Source: Vreelandella titanicae BH1
GTDB taxonomy: Bacteria > Pseudomonadota > Gammaproteobacteria > Pseudomonadales > Halomonadaceae
Reading direction: 5' to 3'
NCBI RefSeq assembly: GCF_000336575.1
Contig: NZ_AOPO01000008.1
Span: 124,001 to 188,000, forward strand
Length of the DNA stretch: 64,000 bases
The notes beneath the pieces are model-generated. The model saw only the letters and a list, made by a program, of their open reading frames with translations, was not told the origin of the DNA and ran no database searches. The translations under genes were made by a program, and so were the position numbers. Position 1 is the first letter of the stretch. Every line of letters begins with the position of its first letter. Positions 3,016 to 21,077 of this stretch are shown piece after piece.

Positions 3016-3144
3016 TAACGCGCTCCTTGGCGATGATTCGAGGGTGATCGACTATGGTTAGTGCTATCTGTTGCTATTTTGCCATACAGCAGGAGAAGGC
3101 GGTGATGGAGTGTTTTCGTTTACATAACAAATAAAGGAGTGTGT

Positions 3145-3573
3145 ATGTGGTGCCAACAAGAGATTCATTTGCCCGAAATGGCGCGCGGCTTTCATTTGAT
3201 TACGGATGATGTGGCCCGCGCACTGCCTTGTTTAAGTGACTGCCAGGCTGGCATGCTGCATTTACAGCTGATGCACACTTCTGCCTCGTTAACGCTCAAT
3301 GAGAACACTGATCCGGATGTGCGCCACGATTTAGATGCTTTTCTGCGTCGACTGGTGCCCGAAGATTTACCCTATTTCCACCACACTCTGGAAGGGCCTG
3401 ATGATATGCCCGCCCATGTAGCCGCCAGCCTGCTGGGTACACAGCTAACGCTGGCGGTGCGCGATGGACGCCTGGCCTTAGGTACCTGGCAGGGCATATG
3501 GCTGGGAGAACACCGCAATCAGGCTGGGCCACGTCGATTACTGGCCACCCTAAACGGGTGTGAAGCGCGCTAG
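3145..3573 (+). CDS. YjbQ family protein (UPF0047)
   Basis: About 142 residues. It shows the family signatures HTSASLTLNENTDPDVRHDL, HTLEGPDDMPAHVAASLLG and the C-terminal LGTWQGIWLGEHR with conserved His and Glu. Members are small cytoplasmic proteins; some have low thiamine-phosphate synthase activity, but the physiological role is unsettled. A GTG at 3139 is also in frame, but the AAAGGAG at 3133-3139 overlaps it, so the ATG at 3145 is preferred. It appears to be a single-gene unit. Confidence 0.88.
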   Translation: MWCQQEIHLPEMARGFHLITDDVARALPCLSDCQAGMLHLQLMHTSASLTLNENTDPDVRHDLDAFLRRLVPEDLPYFHHTLEGPDDMPAHVAASLLGTQLTLAVRDGRLALGTWQGIWLGEHRNQAGPRRLLATLNGCEAR

Positions 3574-3650: not shown

Positions 3651-5897
3651 ATGCCACGACGCTCCTTTCTTCGCCTTTCCCGACAGCGCTGGTTGCGGCT
3701 GTTCTTTTTTCTTAATCTTGCTCTGGTGGCTGGGCTAATTGCTCACCAAATTTGGTTGTATGTAGCAGAACCCAAATTTGAGTCGGTGCATACCCTTGAA
3801 GTGGCGAATATTCGCGAGGTGTTGAAGGAGCGAACCGACTATCGCTTTGCGGTGGTGGGCAATATCAATAACTCGGTGAGCGTGTTTCAAAAGGAGATTG
3901 TGCCGCTCATCAATCAGAGCGGCATCGATTTCCTGATTTCCGCTGGGAATGCCGTCAATAGTGGGCAGCAGGAGAGCTACCAGGCGATTTATCAGAGTCT
4001 GGAGCAGCTCAATGTCCCTTACTTACTCACCTACGGTGAAAATGAAGATAGCGATTTCGGTAGCTATCTGTTTTACGAATATTTTGGGCCGCACTTTTAC
4101 TCGTTTGTAGCGGGCAATAGCCACTTTATCTTTCTTGACGGTACCGGCAAGTCCTCTACCTCCTGGCAGCTTGATTGGTTGGAGCGTGAGCTTACGGCCT
4201 CAGAAACACAGCATCGGTTTCTATTTGTTGGTTTGCCGCTGCACAACGTAGTGAGCGACGCGCCGCTGTTTGAAGCGGACAATTATCTCAATGATTCTCG
4301 CTTAGCCGATGGCATTATGGCGCTGGCAGAGGAGCATGACGTTGACACCGTATTTTCCGCCAACTTAACGCTCTTTTCCCAGCAGACGATTAATGGCGTG
4401 GATTACGTGACCACCGGAGGCGCGGGAGGCATCCTCATCGATGCCGATAGTAGCTTTCACCACTACGTCATCGTCAATGTAGAGGGTGAGAATGTCGCTA
4501 TTGCGCCGGTGCGATTAAATGTGGATAGCCCTGGCTGGTGGCGGATGGTGAGTAGTGTGGCTTCCACGGTGTATGCGTTTTTCTACGTTAGCTATACGCG
4601 GTTTTTGCTGATTGTGGGTATGTTGACGCTGCTCGCACTGCGCTTATATCGGCTAATTTTCGAAGATCGCGACTACTATCCTGATTTTGATATCGACCCA
4701 ACGCCTTTCCTGGGTAAAACTCTGCGCGTAGCGATGATCTCTAATAACTACTTTCCTTTTGTATCGGGGGTATCGGTCTCGGTGGATCGCCTGCGCAATG
4801 GCTTATGTGATCTAGGCCACACCATCCAACTGTTAGTGCCGCGCTACCGAGAAACGTGGCAGGACGACAGCTCAATAAAACGCATCCCCACGCTAATGGC
4901 ATTTGGGCAGAAGGGCGAGTTCCGGTTAACCAATCCGTTCAGTGCGCGTTTTCGTCGTTGCCTGCGTGGGTTTAAGCCGGATGTTATTCATGTTCATCAT
5001 CCCTTTTGGCTCGGTTCCATGGGCCTGTTTATGGGGCGTCGGCTCAAGGTGCCAGTGATCTACACCTATCACACCCGCCTGGAGCACTATGCCCACTTCG
5101 TGCCGTTGCCCGGTGCGCTGTTCCGTAATTTGATTTCCCATACCCTGATCAAGCGCTTCTCTAATCGCTGCCAAGGAGTGATTGTGCCGACTTACTCCGC
5201 CGAGGAGTATCTGCGCATGATTGGAGTGAAGACTCCCTCGCTGGTGCAGCCCACAGGCATAGATGTGGCACGCTTTTCTCACGTTGAGGAGAGTGAGTTG
5301 GAAGCGCTGCGCGAGCAATTAACTATCGACCCTGCAAGTAAAATATTGATCAGCGTCTCGCGGATTAGTAAGGAGAAAAACATTGGCTTTATGCTGGAAG
5401 CCCTCGCCGAGCTTCAGTCACAGGGGCATGATGATCTTCATCTGCTACTGATTGGTGATGGGCCAGACCGGGAGGCGATTCAAAACCAAATCGATACTTT
5501 GAAACTGACCTCGCAGGTCACCCTGGTAGGTGCGGTGCCGCCGGAGCGCATGGCGCTTTATTACCATCTAGGCGATATATTTGTGTTTGCTTCGACCTCA
5601 GAAACCCAGGGTATGGTGATTCTTGAAGCAATGTCGGCGGGGTTGCCCGTCGTGGCGGTGCGCTCCAGCGGTATCGATGATGTGGTGCGGCAAGGGGTCA
5701 ATGGGTTCAAAACACCGCAAAATCGTCAGGCCTGGGGGCAAAGGGTGGTTGAGTTAAAAGATAACGCTGAGCGACGCCGGGAGTTGGGTAAGCAGGCCAG
5801 CCACTTTGCTGAGGAGTTTGATATTGCCAACTTTGCCTCAGCGGTGGCGGGCTTTTACGCCGAAGTGCTGGCCAAATATCACTCGCCTTCGCGGTGA
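3651..5897 (+). CDS. Membrane glycosyltransferase (GT4) fused to a degenerate metallophosphoesterase-like domain
   Basis: 748 residues. Basic N-terminus, TM helix about 16-37, a calcineurin-phosphoesterase-like domain about 65-290, TM helices about 301-332, then a GT-B glycosyltransferase from about 358. The GT part has the family 4 signature TSETQGMVILEAMSAGLPVV at about 646-665. The predicted topology puts the phosphoesterase-like domain in the periplasm and the transferase in the cytoplasm. Several expected metal ligands look replaced: VGNINN for GDxH, SAGNAVNSG for GDxxxxG, YGENED for GNHD and SANLT for GHxH. The substrate is unknown; a glycolipid or mannosyltransferase-like role is possible. 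The ribosome-binding site is weak. Confidence 0.82.
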   Translation: MPRRSFLRLSRQRWLRLFFFLNLALVAGLIAHQIWLYVAEPKFESVHTLEVANIREVLKERTDYRFAVVGNINNSVSVFQKEIVPLINQSGIDFLISAGNAVNSGQQESYQAIYQSLEQLNVPYLLTYGENEDSDFGSYLFYEYFGPHFYSFVAGNSHFIFLDGTGKSSTSWQLDWLERELTASETQHRFLFVGLPLHNVVSDAPLFEADNYLNDSRLADGIMALAEEHDVDTVFSANLTLFSQQTINGVDYVTTGGAGGILIDADSSFHHYVIVNVEGENVAIAPVRLNVDSPGWWRMVSSVASTVYAFFYVSYTRFLLIVGMLTLLALRLYRLIFEDRDYYPDFDIDPTPFLGKTLRVAMISNNYFPFVSGVSVSVDRLRNGLCDLGHTIQLLVPRYRETWQDDSSIKRIPTLMAFGQKGEFRLTNPFSARFRRCLRGFKPDVIHVHHPFWLGSMGLFMGRRLKVPVIYTYHTRLEHYAHFVPLPGALFRNLISHTLIKRFSNRCQGVIVPTYSAEEYLRMIGVKTPSLVQPTGIDVARFSHVEESELEALREQLTIDPASKILISVSRISKEKNIGFMLEALAELQSQGHDDLHLLLIGDGPDREAIQNQIDTLKLTSQVTLVGAVPPERMALYYHLGDIFVFASTSETQGMVILEAMSAGLPVVAVRSSGIDDVVRQGVNGFKTPQNRQAWGQRVVELKDNAERRRELGKQASHFAEEFDIANFASAVAGFYAEVLAKYHSPSR

Positions 5898-6595
5898 GGC
5901 TGTTTTTTTGCCGCTTGGCGGCGGTTAGCATAGCGTTTAAGGCCTATTAACAAGCTAACGCCAGCCGCTAGCCCGACAGCCGCTAAGATGATTTCTTTGG
6001 TCGAGGCAGCGGTGAACAGTGCGCCTAGCTGGCTGCCCAATAAGATCACCGCTGCCAGCCCCGGTACGATGCCCAGGGTGGAGCCGATCATATAGTCGCG
6101 AAACTTAAGGTGAAAAGCGCCCGCCAGCATATTGGTGAGCGTGAACGGGGCGAGTGGCAGCAGGTTAATCACCGTCATGGTGCGAATGCCGCGCTTGGAT
6201 AAGTAACCCGATAGGCCACGCAGATGACGCCCGCCATAACGCATAAGCGCCTCACGGCCTAACCAGTGGCCTACCCAGTAAGACACAATCGAGGAGGTCA
6301 ATGTGCCTAGCGTGGCGTACACCAGCCCCCATATCGGGCCAAACAGTAAGCCAGTCACCACCACCAGTAGGCTAAGTGGAAACATCACCAGCAAGGCACT
6401 GGCATAAGTGGCCATTACCGCAGCAAACATCCAGGGCGCGGTACGCCACTGGCGAATGTAAGCGATAAACTCGCTAAGGCGCGCCTGGGTGAGTAGGTCG
6501 TAGCGCTGCAGTACCTGCCACATGACGCCCAGCAGCACGACGATTACCAGCAGGCCTACGCCCTTACCCAATGTCCGCGACATGCCCACTCCCAT
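5879..6595 (-). CDS. TVP38/TMEM64 (DedA-like) inner-membrane protein
   Basis: 238 residues with several hydrophobic segments and the VTT-domain pattern: GLLFGPIWGLVYATLGTLTSSIVSYWVGHWLGRE, then RTMTVINLLPLAPFTLTNMLAGAFHLKFRDYMIGS. DedA-superfamily proteins act as lipid scramblases or transporters and affect envelope homeostasis. The 3' end overlaps the convergent glycosyltransferase gene by 19 bases. ATG codons at 6595 and 6583 are both possible starts. Function beyond family is not inferable. Confidence 0.85.
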   Translation of the reverse strand: MGVGMSRTLGKGVGLLVIVVLLGVMWQVLQRYDLLTQARLSEFIAYIRQWRTAPWMFAAVMATYASALLVMFPLSLLVVVTGLLFGPIWGLVYATLGTLTSSIVSYWVGHWLGREALMRYGGRHLRGLSGYLSKRGIRTMTVINLLPLAPFTLTNMLAGAFHLKFRDYMIGSTLGIVPGLAAVILLGSQLGALFTAASTKEIILAAVGLAAGVSLLIGLKRYANRRQAAKKQPHREGE

Positions 6596-15254: not shown

Positions 15255-15434
15255 AGCAACGGTTCCTTATCGTTAGCCGGGTAATGTGACGCGAATTTGC
15301 ACACTGGGCAAGGGGGAGAACGGCAAACCTGGCAATATTCAGATAGGTAAAGGTCTGTACGTTGCGGCGAGTATGTCATACGCTTGTTTGAATGCGTTTT
15401 AACACTGTTACTAATAATACCAAGGAGTACCGTG

Positions 15435-17456
15435 ATGACCCGTGCGCCCGCCTATCCGCACCTTTTCCGCCCGCTGACCATTGGCCATTTGACGCTGCCC
15501 AACCGCGTTTTGATGGGCTCTATGCATACCAATTTGGAAGAGGCGCCCAATGGCTTTGAACGCTTAGCGGCATTTTATGCCGAGCGTGCGCGGGAGGGGG
15601 TTAGCCTGATCGTCACCGGCGGTATTGCCCCTAATGCGGAAGGCGCCGTATTCCAGGGCGCCCACGCGCTCGTTGATGAGGCGCAGTTGCCAGAACACCG
15701 CCAGGTGGCAGACGCGGTGCATGCTGAGGGCGGTCATCTGTGCATGCAGATTCTTCATGCCGGGCGCTACGCCTACTCGCCGGATTTGGTAGCACCTTCG
15801 GCTATCCAGGCGCCGATCAATCCCTTTATGCCTAGAGCACTTTCTAGCGATGAGGTTGAGCAACAAATTGCTGACTACGTTCGCTGCGCAAGCTTAGCCA
15901 AACAGGCGGGCTACGATGGCGTTGAGATCATGGGGTCAGAAGGTTATCTGATCAATCAGTTTATCTGTCAGCGTACCAACCAGCGTGACGATGAGTGGGG
16001 CGGGGCGTTTGAAAACCGGATGCATTTTGCCGTTGAGATCGTGCGCCGTGTTCGCGAAGCGGTGGGTGAACGATTTGTGATTATCTTCCGCCTCTCGATG
16101 ATTGATTTGGTCGAAGAGGGCAGCACCTGGGAAGAGGTCGTCACGCTGGGCCAGGCGATCGAAGCCGCCGGGGCGAACGTGATCAACACCGGTATCGGTT
16201 GGCACGAAGCGCGGGTGCCCACCATTGTGACCAGCGTGCCCCGCGCTGCCTTTACCGAGGTGACCCGGCGGATCAAATCAGCACTATCGATTCCGTTGAT
16301 TACCACCAACCGTATCAATATGCCTGAGGTAGCCGAGCGCGTACTGGCGGCGGGCCACGCGGATATGGTCTCCATGGCGCGGCCTTTCCTGGCAGATCCC
16401 GCCTGGATACGCAAAGCCGAAGAGGGCTTGGCTGAAGAGATCAATACCTGTATCGCCTGTAACCAGGCCTGCCTGGATCACACCTTTGCCGGAAAGCTGA
16501 CCTCCTGTTTGGTCAACCCCCGTGCCTGTCATGAAACCGAACTGGTGATAGAGCCCGCGCAAACCCCTAAACGCGTCGCCGTGGTGGGCGGTGGGCCCGC
16601 GGGTCTGGCAACGGCCGTGACAGCCGCTAGCCGCGGACACAGCGTGGTGCTGTTCGAACAGCGCAGTGAGCTAGGCGGGCAGTTTAACTACGCGCGTAAG
16701 ATCCCCGGCAAAGAGGAGTTTAATGAAACCCTGCGCTACTACCGGGTGATGCTGGAGAAATATGCGGTAGAAGTACGTCTAAACACTACGGCAAGCGCAG
16801 AAACCCTCGCCGCTTTCGATGAGGTGGTCATGGCCACCGGCGTTAAGCCCCGGGAACTCAATCTTCCAGGTCACGACCACGGCAAGGTGTTGAGCTACGC
16901 CGAAGCGATTGAATCTCCCGAGCGTGTTGGGCGTAAAGTAGCGGTGATTGGCGCGGGAGGTATTGGTTTTGATGTGTCCGAACTGCTGGCCCACCAAGGC
17001 CACCCAGCCTTGGACATTGCCGACTGGTGCGACGAGTGGGGCGTTGATTTGGCAGTCGGCGAGCGGGGCGGTTTAAAAGCGCCGACGGCTCCAGTGGTTC
17101 CCCGCGAAATTGTCATGCTCCAGCGTAAAACTTCCAAGCCTGGCAAGTATCTGGGGAAAACCACCGGTTGGGTTCACCGCGCATCGCTTAAGCAGCGGGG
17201 AGTGAAAACTCTCACCGGCTGCGAATACCTCAAAATCGACGACGAGGGGCTGCATATTCGCCGCGATGGCGTTGACCAAGTACTTGCCGTGGATAGCATT
17301 GTGGTGTGCGCCGGGCAGGAGTCAGTGCGCGATCTACTGGCGCCGTTGGAACGCGCACGGGCGGTGGTACATATAATCGGCGGCGCGGATGAAGCTAGCG
17401 AACTGGATGCCAAGCGGGCAATTGAGCAGGGCACTCGATTGGCCGCTAGCCTATAG
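15435..17456 (+). CDS. fadH: NADPH-dependent 2,4-dienoyl-CoA reductase
   Basis: 673 residues, as in E. coli FadH (672). An N-terminal old-yellow-enzyme TIM barrel (about 10-330) binds FMN. A 4Fe-4S cluster motif follows at CIACNQACLDHTFAGKLTSC. The C-terminal part has two dinucleotide folds, VGGGPAGLATA and IGAGGIGFDVSE. It removes conjugated double bases in beta-oxidation of unsaturated fatty acids. The ATG at 15435 follows AAGGAG; the upstream in-frame start would add 17 residues lacking family resemblance. Confidence 0.93.
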   Translation: MTRAPAYPHLFRPLTIGHLTLPNRVLMGSMHTNLEEAPNGFERLAAFYAERAREGVSLIVTGGIAPNAEGAVFQGAHALVDEAQLPEHRQVADAVHAEGGHLCMQILHAGRYAYSPDLVAPSAIQAPINPFMPRALSSDEVEQQIADYVRCASLAKQAGYDGVEIMGSEGYLINQFICQRTNQRDDEWGGAFENRMHFAVEIVRRVREAVGERFVIIFRLSMIDLVEEGSTWEEVVTLGQAIEAAGANVINTGIGWHEARVPTIVTSVPRAAFTEVTRRIKSALSIPLITTNRINMPEVAERVLAAGHADMVSMARPFLADPAWIRKAEEGLAEEINTCIACNQACLDHTFAGKLTSCLVNPRACHETELVIEPAQTPKRVAVVGGGPAGLATAVTAASRGHSVVLFEQRSELGGQFNYARKIPGKEEFNETLRYYRVMLEKYAVEVRLNTTASAETLAAFDEVVMATGVKPRELNLPGHDHGKVLSYAEAIESPERVGRKVAVIGAGGIGFDVSELLAHQGHPALDIADWCDEWGVDLAVGERGGLKAPTAPVVPREIVMLQRKTSKPGKYLGKTTGWVHRASLKQRGVKTLTGCEYLKIDDEGLHIRRDGVDQVLAVDSIVVCAGQESVRDLLAPLERARAVVHIIGGADEASELDAKRAIEQGTRLAASL

Positions 17457-19154: not shown

Positions 19155-21077
19155 ATGAGCATCTTTGATCACGTTCAAGACCGTTTTTCCCGCGTTCAGC
19201 AAGAGGACATGAGCCTGGAGGAGTATCTGGCGCTTTGTCGCCGTGATCCGAAGGTTTATGCCAGCGCCGCCGAGCGCATGCTGGAAGCCGTAGGCGAGCC
19301 TGAAGTGATCGACACGGCGAAAGACCCGCGTCTATCACGTATTTTTTCCAATAAAGTGATTCGTCGCTATCCAGCCTTTGCCGAGTTTCACGGTATGGAG
19401 GAGGCCATTGAGCAAATCGTCTCCTACTTCCGCCATGCGGCTCAAGGGCTTGAAGAGCGCAAACAGATTCTCTATCTGCTTGGCCCTGTGGGCGGCGGTA
19501 AGTCGTCGCTGGCAGAGCGTCTTAAGCTGCTGATGGAGCGGATTCCGTTCTATGCCATTAAAGGCTCGCCGGTCTACGAGTCGCCGCTTGGCTTGTTCTC
19601 ACCCGAAGAGGACGGAGAACTGCTCGAGAAAGAGTACGGTATCCCACAGCGCTATTTGCGCAGCGTAATGTCGCCCTGGGCGGCAAAACGGCTAAATGAG
19701 TACGGCGGCGATATCTCCCAGTTCCGGGTAGTGCGTTTGTACCCATCACGGCTTAACCAGATCGCTATTTCCAAAACCGAGCCGGGGGATGAGAACAACC
19801 AGGATATCTCGTCGCTGGTGGGTAAAGTCGATATTCGCCAATTGGAGCTTTACTCCCAGGATGATCCGGATGCCTACAGCTTCTCTGGCGGTTTATGCCG
19901 TGCTAACCAGGGGCTGATGGAGTTTGTGGAGATGTTCAAAGCGCCGATCAAGGTGCTGCATCCACTGCTTACCGCGACGCAAGAGGGTAACTACAACCCC
20001 ACCGAAGGCATGGGGGCGATACCTTTTGATGGTGTAATTCTGGCCCACTCCAACGAGTCGGAGTGGCAGGCGTTTCGCAATAATCGCAATAACGAAGCGT
20101 TCCTTGATCGGGTTTATATCGTCAAGGTGCCTTATTGTTTGCGGGTTACCGAAGAGATCAAGATCTATCAAAAACTACTCGAAGACTCTTCGCTTAACGC
20201 CGCGCCCTGCGCACCGGACACGCTGCGCATGTTGGCCCAGTTCTCGGTACTGTCACGGCTAAAAGCGCCGGAAAACTCCAATATTTACTCGAAAATGCGC
20301 GTTTACGACGGTGAAAATCTGAAAGACACCGACCCTCGCGCCAAGTCGATTCAGGAGTACCGCGACGCCGCAGGCGTTGACGAGGGTATGCAGGGTCTCT
20401 CCACTCGCTTTGCGTTCAAGATTCTCTCTAAGGTATTTAACTTCGACAGCACCGAGGTGGCTGCTAACCCAGTCCATTTACTTTATGTGCTTGAGCAGGC
20501 GTTGGAGCGCGAGCAACTGCCATCGGAAGTGTTTGAGCGCTACTTGGGCTTTATCAAAGAGTATATGGCGCCTCGTTACGTGGACTTTATTGGTAAGGAG
20601 ATCCAGACCGCTTACCTCGAATCCTACAGCGAGTATGGCCAGAATATCTTTGACCGCTATGTGACCTACGCAGATTTCTGGATTCAGGATCAGGAATACC
20701 GCGACCACGAAACCGGCGAGTTACTAGACCGCCAGGCGCTCAACGAAGAGCTGGAGAAAATCGAAAAACCCGCGGGTATCTCGAATCCTAAAGACTTCCG
20801 CCACGAGGTGGTCAATTTTGTGCTGCGGGCGCGGGCGCAAAACAACGGTATGAACCCGAGCTGGCAGTCCTATGAAAAGCTCAAGGGCGTTATCGAGCAC
20901 AAAATGTTCGCCAATACCGAAGAGCTGTTGCCGGTGATTTCGTTCAATGCCAAGGCTTCTCGCTCGGATCAGAAAAAGCACGAAGACTTTGTGGCGCGGA
21001 TGGTCGATCGCGGCTACACCGAAAAACAGGTGCGGTTGCTATCCGAGTGGTATCTGCGCGTGCGCAAGTCCCAGTAA
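19155..21077 (+). CDS. prkA: PrkA serine protein kinase / AAA+ protein (YeaG)
   Basis: 640 residues, matching E. coli YeaG (644). An AAA+ domain has the Walker A GPVGGGKSSL at 110-119, followed by the C-terminal PrkA kinase-like region. YeaG-type proteins act in stationary-phase, nutrient-stress and nitrogen-starvation responses. Strong Shine-Dalgarno ACAGGAG. It is the first gene of a three-gene unit with yeaH-like and spoVR-like genes. In enterobacteria yeaGH is under sigma S; a comparable promoter probably lies in the 290-base gap upstream, but I cannot assign one. Confidence 0.93.
   Translation: MSIFDHVQDRFSRVQQEDMSLEEYLALCRRDPKVYASAAERMLEAVGEPEVIDTAKDPRLSRIFSNKVIRRYPAFAEFHGMEEAIEQIVSYFRHAAQGLEERKQILYLLGPVGGGKSSLAERLKLLMERIPFYAIKGSPVYESPLGLFSPEEDGELLEKEYGIPQRYLRSVMSPWAAKRLNEYGGDISQFRVVRLYPSRLNQIAISKTEPGDENNQDISSLVGKVDIRQLELYSQDDPDAYSFSGGLCRANQGLMEFVEMFKAPIKVLHPLLTATQEGNYNPTEGMGAIPFDGVILAHSNESEWQAFRNNRNNEAFLDRVYIVKVPYCLRVTEEIKIYQKLLEDSSLNAAPCAPDTLRMLAQFSVLSRLKAPENSNIYSKMRVYDGENLKDTDPRAKSIQEYRDAAGVDEGMQGLSTRFAFKILSKVFNFDSTEVAANPVHLLYVLEQALEREQLPSEVFERYLGFIKEYMAPRYVDFIGKEIQTAYLESYSEYGQNIFDRYVTYADFWIQDQEYRDHETGELLDRQALNEELEKIEKPAGISNPKDFRHEVVNFVLRARAQNNGMNPSWQSYEKLKGVIEHKMFANTEELLPVISFNAKASRSDQKKHEDFVARMVDRGYTEKQVRLLSEWYLRVRKSQ

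Follow-up and report, generated by a model that had tools for sequence, protein, structure and literature searches.

A conserved, probably inactive phosphoesterase-fold domain on a membrane glycosyltransferase of Vreelandella titanicae, with putative lipid scramblase genes as neighbours

What might a bacterial glycosyltransferase do with an attached phosphoesterase domain that appears unable to cut? The question is raised by a gene in a 64,000-nucleotide stretch of the Vreelandella titanicae BH1 genome (the window; contig NZ_AOPO01000008.1, positions 124,001 to 188,000), where positions 3651..5897 of the plus strand encode a 748-residue protein. From the list of open reading frames, Pfam matches and homologues, this protein consists of an N-terminal membrane helix, a pseudo-phosphoesterase domain (the N-domain), a second membrane helix and a glycosyltransferase family 4 (GT4) domain. 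An original prediction, made from the sequence alone, held that the N-domain follows the motif order of calcineurin-type phosphoesterases with its metal ligands replaced, that it lies in the periplasm, and that it might sense a ligand or serve as a scaffold. Our best overall explanation, to which we assign a probability of about 0.5, is that the protein is an inner-leaflet glycolipid synthase that works with a scramblase and carries a periplasmic pseudo-phosphoesterase that reads or docks something.

The N-domain (about residues 60-292, positions 3828..4526, plus strand) matches PF00149 (Metallophos) over residues 83-236 with 19.3-19.4 bits (E about 0.0015), just below the gathering cut-off of 21.5, so annotation that relies on the cut-off misses it. 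Because the best 50 rows for a full-length model against the Protein Data Bank (PDB) were all glycosyltransferases, we modelled residues 1-350 alone, from 36 family sequences only (mean predicted local distance difference test score 73.9, predicted template modelling score 0.69). The top Foldseek rows for this model among solved structures were red kidney bean purple acid phosphatase and GpdQ, a glycerophosphodiesterase (E 3e-11 to 5e-11, with 4e-11 for GpdQ), and VPS29 was also among the rows. VIA comparisons with calcineurin-type phosphoesterases gave Z 20-21 over 206-226 residues overall: 21.1 to Lmo2642, 20.9 to both human purple acid phosphatase (2bq8; 219 residues, 3.0 Å) and GpdQ (2zo9; 221 residues, 4.3 Å), 20.3 to Rv0805 (2hy1; 206 residues, 2.9 Å) and 19.8 to GAP50 (219 residues, 2.9 Å). 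On sequence only, a search of the PDB with the family profile gave E 3.8e-6 for purple acid phosphatases and 0.001 for GpdQ. At the level of the predicted structure, these comparisons confirm that the N-domain belongs to the calcineurin-type phosphoesterase fold, as its motif order had suggested.

Purple acid phosphatase, GpdQ and Rv0805 are di-metal enzymes; the N-domain shares their fold, but at six of eight positions the residues of the metal site are absent. Each altered motif named in the original prediction can be found in the protein: VGNINN spans residues 69-74, SAGNAVNSG 97-105, YGENED 128-133 and SANLTLF 236-242. The five-motif signature of PF00149 (D-x-H, GD, GNH(D/E), H and GHxH) is lacking. 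Motifs 2-5, all on the plus strand, were placed by alignment to GpdQ, purple acid phosphatase and a phosphoesterase locus, L074. In these alignments N100 replaces the bridging Asp of motif 2 (SAGN for GD; 3948..3950), E130-N131-E132 replaces N-H-D in motif 3 (4038..4046), G194 replaces the metal His of motif 4 (4230..4232) and N238-L-T240 replaces H-x-H in motif 5 (4362..4370), with E130 and N131 aligned to the Asn-His of GNHD and N238 and T240 to both His of GHxH. L074 was the only one of 20 phosphoesterase loci tried that passed our motif filter, so that comparison is to a single protein, and it misaligns motif 1. Motif 1 was therefore assigned from the ranges of the structural alignments, in which model residue 64 corresponds to GpdQ residue 1 and model residue 60 to Rv0805 residue 10. 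If these ranges are ungapped, N71 and N73 (N71-I-N73 for D-x-H; 3861..3869, plus strand) fall on D8/H10 of GpdQ and D21/H23 of Rv0805, which we take to be the metal ligands of these enzymes.

The loss of ligands is a property of the family. We compared 36 non-redundant rows, namely the window and 35 loci kept at <96% identity from 61 loci examined, leaving out three incomplete loci (L024, L046 and L047) and two with broken frames (L061 and L062). At the eight positions that are D, H, D, N, H, H, H and H in active enzymes, and N71, N73, N100, E130, N131, G194, N238 and T240 here, the numbers of rows with the canonical residue are 0, 0, 0, 0, 12, 0, 0 and 3, respectively; His is thus found at 131 in 12/36 rows and at 240 in 3/36, and the other six positions are canonical in 0/36. 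Two Roseobacteraceae plasmid relatives, 37-40% identical in the N-domain, have E71, N73, N100, E130, N131, G194, G238 and A or T at 240. Because the ligands are lost in the 36 rows and in both of these alphaproteobacterial relatives, the loss is old and shared rather than an accident of one strain, and what was first proposed for one protein extends to its homologues.

No fusion that keeps the ligands was found among 58 relatives, 369 class genomes and 398 phylum genomes (overlapping sets) when the inactive domain was the query, with up to five candidates per genome scored in the class and phylum sets, phylum matches taken only at E up to 1e-15, and no search made for PF00149 and GT4 in one frame. 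Weaker class matches (≤51 bits), from 12 of the 19 matching genomes, are separate proteins (loci L071-L084) that mostly align as phosphoesterases, with L084 aligning only via its membrane region; this rests on alignments that were read, with motifs not all tabulated. A tblastn search with the glycosyltransferase domain found no glycosyltransferase within these 14 loci of 2.6-3.6 kb each. The alignments make it well supported that the N-domain is catalytically dead. Because metal-binding residues have been lost in every relative examined, it probably senses or holds something rather than cutting.

The N-domain is under strong purifying selection. Among 15 close sequences, the median ratio of nonsynonymous to synonymous substitutions (dN/dS; simple Nei-Gojobori counts, pairs with dS 0.1-1.5) was 0.049 for the N-domain (102/105 pairs) and 0.064 for the glycosyltransferase (104/105 pairs). 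N71, N74, S75, N100, E132 and H271 are invariant in the 36 rows. Of 40 invariant positions within residues 60-291, 21 are among the 56 positions in the former active-site loops vs 19 among the 176 elsewhere (odds ratio 5.0), an enrichment whose p-value is descriptive only, as the loops were drawn by hand after the alignment had been inspected. This pattern suggests that the emptied pocket is the most constrained part of the domain, and the clustering leans towards a pocket that still binds something.

The fusion is constant in the intact copies found. The N-domain occurs in 22/58 genomes of the relatives' set (own genome included), at full strength in 7/369 class genomes, and in 7/398 phylum genomes at E up to 1e-15; complete matches in these sets lie in open frames of 744-880 residues, long enough for the glycosyltransferase. 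The L024 match lies at a contig end, and in L046, L047, L061 and L062 the fused gene is split into two or more frames, by sequencing error or as a pseudogene. A collection of named genomes held 32 loci, the nearest named record being Vreelandella sedimenti, with 98% identity along the entire protein. A plasmid collection held 30 records from Pseudosulfitobacter, one from Sulfitobacter, one from Alloyangia and one Halomonas record at 99.7%. No match for the protein was found in phages. The named hosts are mostly halophiles or marine bacteria.

Two membrane segments flank the N-domain. The first (residues 18-36; 3702..3758, plus strand) was drawn from hydropathy and a model helix at 3-38, and follows an Arg-rich N-terminus that predicts an N-in orientation; the second (residues 319-337; 4605..4661, plus strand) was drawn from hydropathy and a model helix at 315-337. 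Ahead of the second, the model places a helix at residues 295-313 (4533..4589, plus strand; low confidence at 305-314) that leads into the membrane and is possibly interfacial. The same hydropathy scan gives a weak third peak at 652-670, inside the GT4 core. From hydropathy together with the positive-inside rule, we predict that the stretch bounded by the two flanking segments is periplasmic and that the GT4 domain is cytoplasmic, which agrees with the topology first proposed.

The GT4 domain (residues 358-748; 4722..5894, plus strand) is predicted to be active from Pfam, NCBIfam and Foldseek matches. It scores 99.2 bits to PF13439 over residues 371-541 (cut-off 28.5) and 128.2 bits to PF00534 over residues 552-717 (cut-off 26.4), exceeds the cut-offs of PF13692 and PF13579 as well, and has a GT-B fold, with Foldseek matches to MshA, BshA and PimA. 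Both Glu of an E651-x7-E659 motif (5601..5627, plus strand), the motif of retaining GT4 enzymes, are invariant in an 18-row alignment. The best NCBIfam match, over nearly the full length of the domain, is alpha-monoglucosyldiacylglycerol synthase (NF049988; 205.7 bits for the whole protein, 208.4 for the domain, cut-off 400), and the second is GpgS (NF053787; 142.2 and 144.8 bits, cut-off 480), a synthase of glucosaminyl-phosphatidylglycerol (GlcN-PG). Because both scores are below the cut-offs, the enzyme belongs to neither family by the curated standard. Known alpha-monoglucosyldiacylglycerol synthases are single-domain peripheral membrane proteins, from which the fused protein differs. In relatives, the next-best glycosyltransferases share only 29-32% identity, and their frames of 401-526 residues leave no room for the N-domain.

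The best clue to the pathway is provided by neighbouring scramblase-type genes, to which the original prediction made no reference. In the window, a gene for a VTT-domain (DedA/TVP38-type) membrane protein, a putative lipid scramblase (5879..6595, minus strand; PF09335, 86.8 bits vs a cut-off of 33.9), converges on the fused gene, and their 3' ends overlap by 19 bp. We examined 39 loci with the fusion, a set without L127-L130, where the fusion is absent, and without L089 and L090, duplicates of L032 and L056/L058, respectively. A VTT gene is adjacent in 28/39 by profile and 29/39 by tblastn, the extra locus being a trace in L034; by tblastn, 22 lie downstream on the opposite strand, six upstream on the opposite strand and one downstream on the same strand. 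In 7/39 loci the neighbour is instead a gene of the LPG_synthase_TM family (PF03706; MprF flippase/YbhN-type), upstream and on the same strand in all seven. Both types never occur together (0/39), and some putative scramblase gene stands beside the fused gene in 35-36/39 loci. The PF03706 assignment was checked by Pfam in two of the seven (L053, 98.6 bits; L091, 129.8 bits; cut-off 33.4), and in four loci read directly (L085, L088, L131 and L132) the PF03706 gene overlaps the fused gene by 4 bp. The same pair with a 4-base overlap is present in 3/3 Roseobacteraceae plasmid loci fetched, of 32 such records, with PF03706 taken from PLSDB annotation. Because the genome of the window holds only five VTT and two PF03706 genes in total, chance adjacency is unlikely.

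The partner has also been exchanged. A tree of the glycosyltransferase domain (27 rows) has starred branches that require both the VTT label and the PF03706 label to have changed at least twice, the partner labels of the short loci having been checked; several of its forks are open, a long-branch warning applies to L051, L052, L086 and L087 among others, and the L128 and L129 enzymes were labelled as without fusion despite VTT genes nearby. The membrane domain of MprF is described as a promiscuous lipid scramblase that can to some extent be exchanged for DedA domains, and fusions of it with glycosyltransferases are reported (PMC11980842). A swap between VTT and MprF-type partners is what such interchangeability would predict.

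Several observations on the arrangement of these genes stand apart. The close relatives L034 and L048 keep the fused gene with no intact VTT gene beside it. On the Halomonas sp. A40-4 chromosome (L090; also L056 and L058) the VTT and fused genes occur as a pair twice, with identical arrangement and 8,851 bases between the copies. The flippase-glycosyltransferase pair on Roseobacteraceae plasmids (L133, L134 and L135) might be a mobile two-gene cassette; in a Pseudosulfitobacter plasmid record, IS3 and IS110 transposase genes flank the pair on either side. A more distant genome has a VTT gene, a 782-residue frame without a Pfam match, a related GT4 gene and an 843-residue frame in a row (L129:4479-11150), the last of which matches type I phosphodiesterase and endonuclease/exonuclease/phosphatase families.

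Modules of this kind are already known. In Pseudomonas aeruginosa, GlcN-PG is made by the gpgSDF operon, which encodes a GT4 enzyme, a deacetylase and a flippase predicted to be of the YbhN type; the same paper treats Clostridioides difficile hexSDF as analogous (PMC12713373). The loci studied here resemble GpgS-GpgD-GpgF where, as in 7/39, the GT4 gene stands beside one for a predicted flippase of the YbhN/MprF type. They differ in that the glycosyltransferase (142-145 bits) and the L091 partner (43.5 bits to GlcN_PG_flip) fall far below the cut-offs of 480 and 320, and in that GpgS is cytoplasmic without membrane helices, with no phosphoesterase domain mentioned in the part of the same source that was available (PMC12713373). 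We noticed no deacetylase gene beside the fused gene, although no search was aimed at deacetylases. MprF, an aminoacyl-phosphatidylglycerol synthase with a flippase, likewise combines a lipid-modifying enzyme with a scramblase, which in some lineages here is the separate PF03706 gene; unlike MprF, the present system would use a sugar instead of an amino acid, is made of separate polypeptides and has an additional, apparently dead periplasmic domain. Judged by titles and the openings of abstracts, the open-access literature matches listed included no glycosyltransferase fused to an inactive metallophosphoesterase, and those listed for glucosylphosphatidylglycerol in Halomonas held nothing useful. 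What appears new is the addition of a pseudo-enzyme domain to a proposed glycolipid synthase-scramblase module.

We propose that the cytoplasmic GT4 domain would move a sugar from a nucleotide-sugar donor to an inner-leaflet lipid, most likely diacylglycerol or phosphatidylglycerol, and that the neighbouring scramblase (VTT/DedA-type here, MprF-flippase-type in other lineages) would carry the product to the outer leaflet. The N-domain would be a true calcineurin-fold phosphoesterase whose di-metal site was lost before the known family members radiated. It would have been kept in a non-catalytic role, its old pocket binding a head group, the product or the scramblase on the periplasmic side and so coupling or regulating synthesis. 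The part of the proposal in which a scramblase serves an inner-leaflet glycolipid synthase is moderately supported; that the periplasmic pseudo-phosphoesterase senses or docks something is what we infer from the loss of its ligands and its constraint. A more specific version, in which the pocket reads the head group of a phospholipid or glycolipid that scrambling has brought to the outer leaflet and the two helices relay the signal to the glycosyltransferase as trans-membrane feedback, is tentative and rather unlikely.

Several points weigh against this proposal. Several of the pocket loops (103-105, 131-140 and 203-206) are modelled at a confidence below 50. The glycosyltransferase scores far under every curated equivalog cut-off seen, and its resemblance to glycolipid synthases is not peculiar to the fusion, since three related glycosyltransferases without the dead domain also score highest (148-159 bits) against alpha-monoglucosyldiacylglycerol synthase. 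Some of the 39 loci come from close relatives and two of them (L056 and L058) from a single genome, so they are not 39 independent events; three (L048, L055 and L060) have no partner nearby, and L034 has only the VTT trace missed by the profile. In the window's clade the VTT gene is convergent and not operonic with the glycosyltransferase. In L128 a shorter GT4 enzyme without the dead domain (L128:6704-8173; 31% identical, with an N-terminal hydrophobic stretch and no phosphoesterase domain) directly adjoins a VTT gene in the same syntenic slot, and in L129 a related enzyme without the dead domain lies one gene from a VTT gene; because of these two loci, the scramblase gene appears to go with the glycosyltransferase and not specifically with the dead domain.

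Alternative explanations differ in how much of this evidence they accommodate. The N-domain might be only a structural or docking platform that holds the scramblase or another periplasmic protein by the glycosyltransferase and senses no small ligand. VPS29, which appeared in the Foldseek rows, acts as a scaffold of the same fold. The fold extends, at Z 19.8, to Plasmodium GAP50, which is described as anchoring a motor complex in the membrane and for which phosphatase activity has also been reported (PMC8949495); both proteins are eukaryotic and, unlike the protein studied here, are not fused to a glycosyltransferase. The membrane partner that adjoins in 35-36/39 loci would provide something to dock. 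Nevertheless, the enrichment of invariant residues in the former active-site loops, descriptive as it is, counts against this reading, and the partner family changes while the N-domain stays, so that one interface would have to fit two families; we regard pure docking as possible but on balance not likely. The glycosyltransferase might instead start a lipid-linked glycan on a polyprenyl-phosphate acceptor, as many GT4 enzymes act on lipid-linked glycans, with the VTT protein recycling polyprenyl phosphate as do UptA-type proteins, which are of the DedA type. It is in keeping with this that L087 has three other glycosyltransferase-like genes nearby and that UptA-type proteins transport undecaprenyl phosphate across the membrane (PMC11474028). 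However, no glycan-assembly cluster was noticed in the other neighbourhoods listed, where most genes are without profile annotation, the best similarity of the glycosyltransferase is to glycerolipid synthases, and the partner that stands in for VTT at some loci comes from the MprF flippase family. We therefore consider a role in glycan assembly unlikely.

Two further explanations concern the N-domain itself. It might still be an enzyme with an unusual or metal-free site, such as a hydrolase that uses the invariant Asn, Glu and His; the residues listed above are as invariant as catalytic residues would be, and His 131 is kept in a third of the rows (12/36). Known phosphoesterases of the calcineurin fold, however, work with metals, both Asp and the metal His positions are lost in every row except for His 240 in 3/36, and both alphaproteobacterial rows carry Glu at position 71; together these points make retained catalysis improbable. 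Alternatively, the lost catalytic positions might mark an old fusion whose N-domain no longer has a function and is decaying. A dN/dS of 0.049 that is not above the value for the glycosyltransferase, the invariant pocket residues and the keeping of the fusion in both Gamma- and Alphaproteobacteria make such decay highly improbable. Our preferred reading of a glycolipid synthase with a scramblase and a non-catalytic periplasmic domain remains the one that we consider best.

Other features of the surroundings touch these conclusions less closely. A UPF0047 gene (3139-3573, same strand) lies 77 bp upstream of the fused gene in the window; it is kept in the window's clade (4/17 clustered neighbourhoods) and was not seen in the other 13. 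Genes of the calcium/sodium antiporter type turn up repeatedly in the vicinity of the fused gene, namely in Wenzhouxiangella, Halomonas A40-4, Sulfitobacter and Alloyangia (L051:4923-5942; L090:4161-5135 and 15362-16336; L133:3839-4804; L135:3554-4519), those in L051 and L090 being named by eye from the sequence. A phosphate-regulation box was rejected as a candidate signal: the window has 17 matches vs 13.6 expected by chance, only one of them below position 20,000 (at 268-284).

To our knowledge, few bacterial pseudo-phosphoesterases have been described, and the extra domain studied here goes unnoticed in annotation, with three annotated plasmid records that we fetched naming the fused protein only as 'glycosyltransferase'. 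The swapped partners suggest that one enzyme can be served in the same way by VTT/DedA and by MprF-type proteins, and the coupling of lipid glycosylation to flipping becomes testable in a non-pathogenic halophile. The finding bears on how synthesis on one leaflet is matched to the composition of the other. If the feedback version of our proposal were true, synthesis would be matched to outer-leaflet composition by a pseudo-enzyme leaflet sensor that is carried along with interchangeable scramblases.

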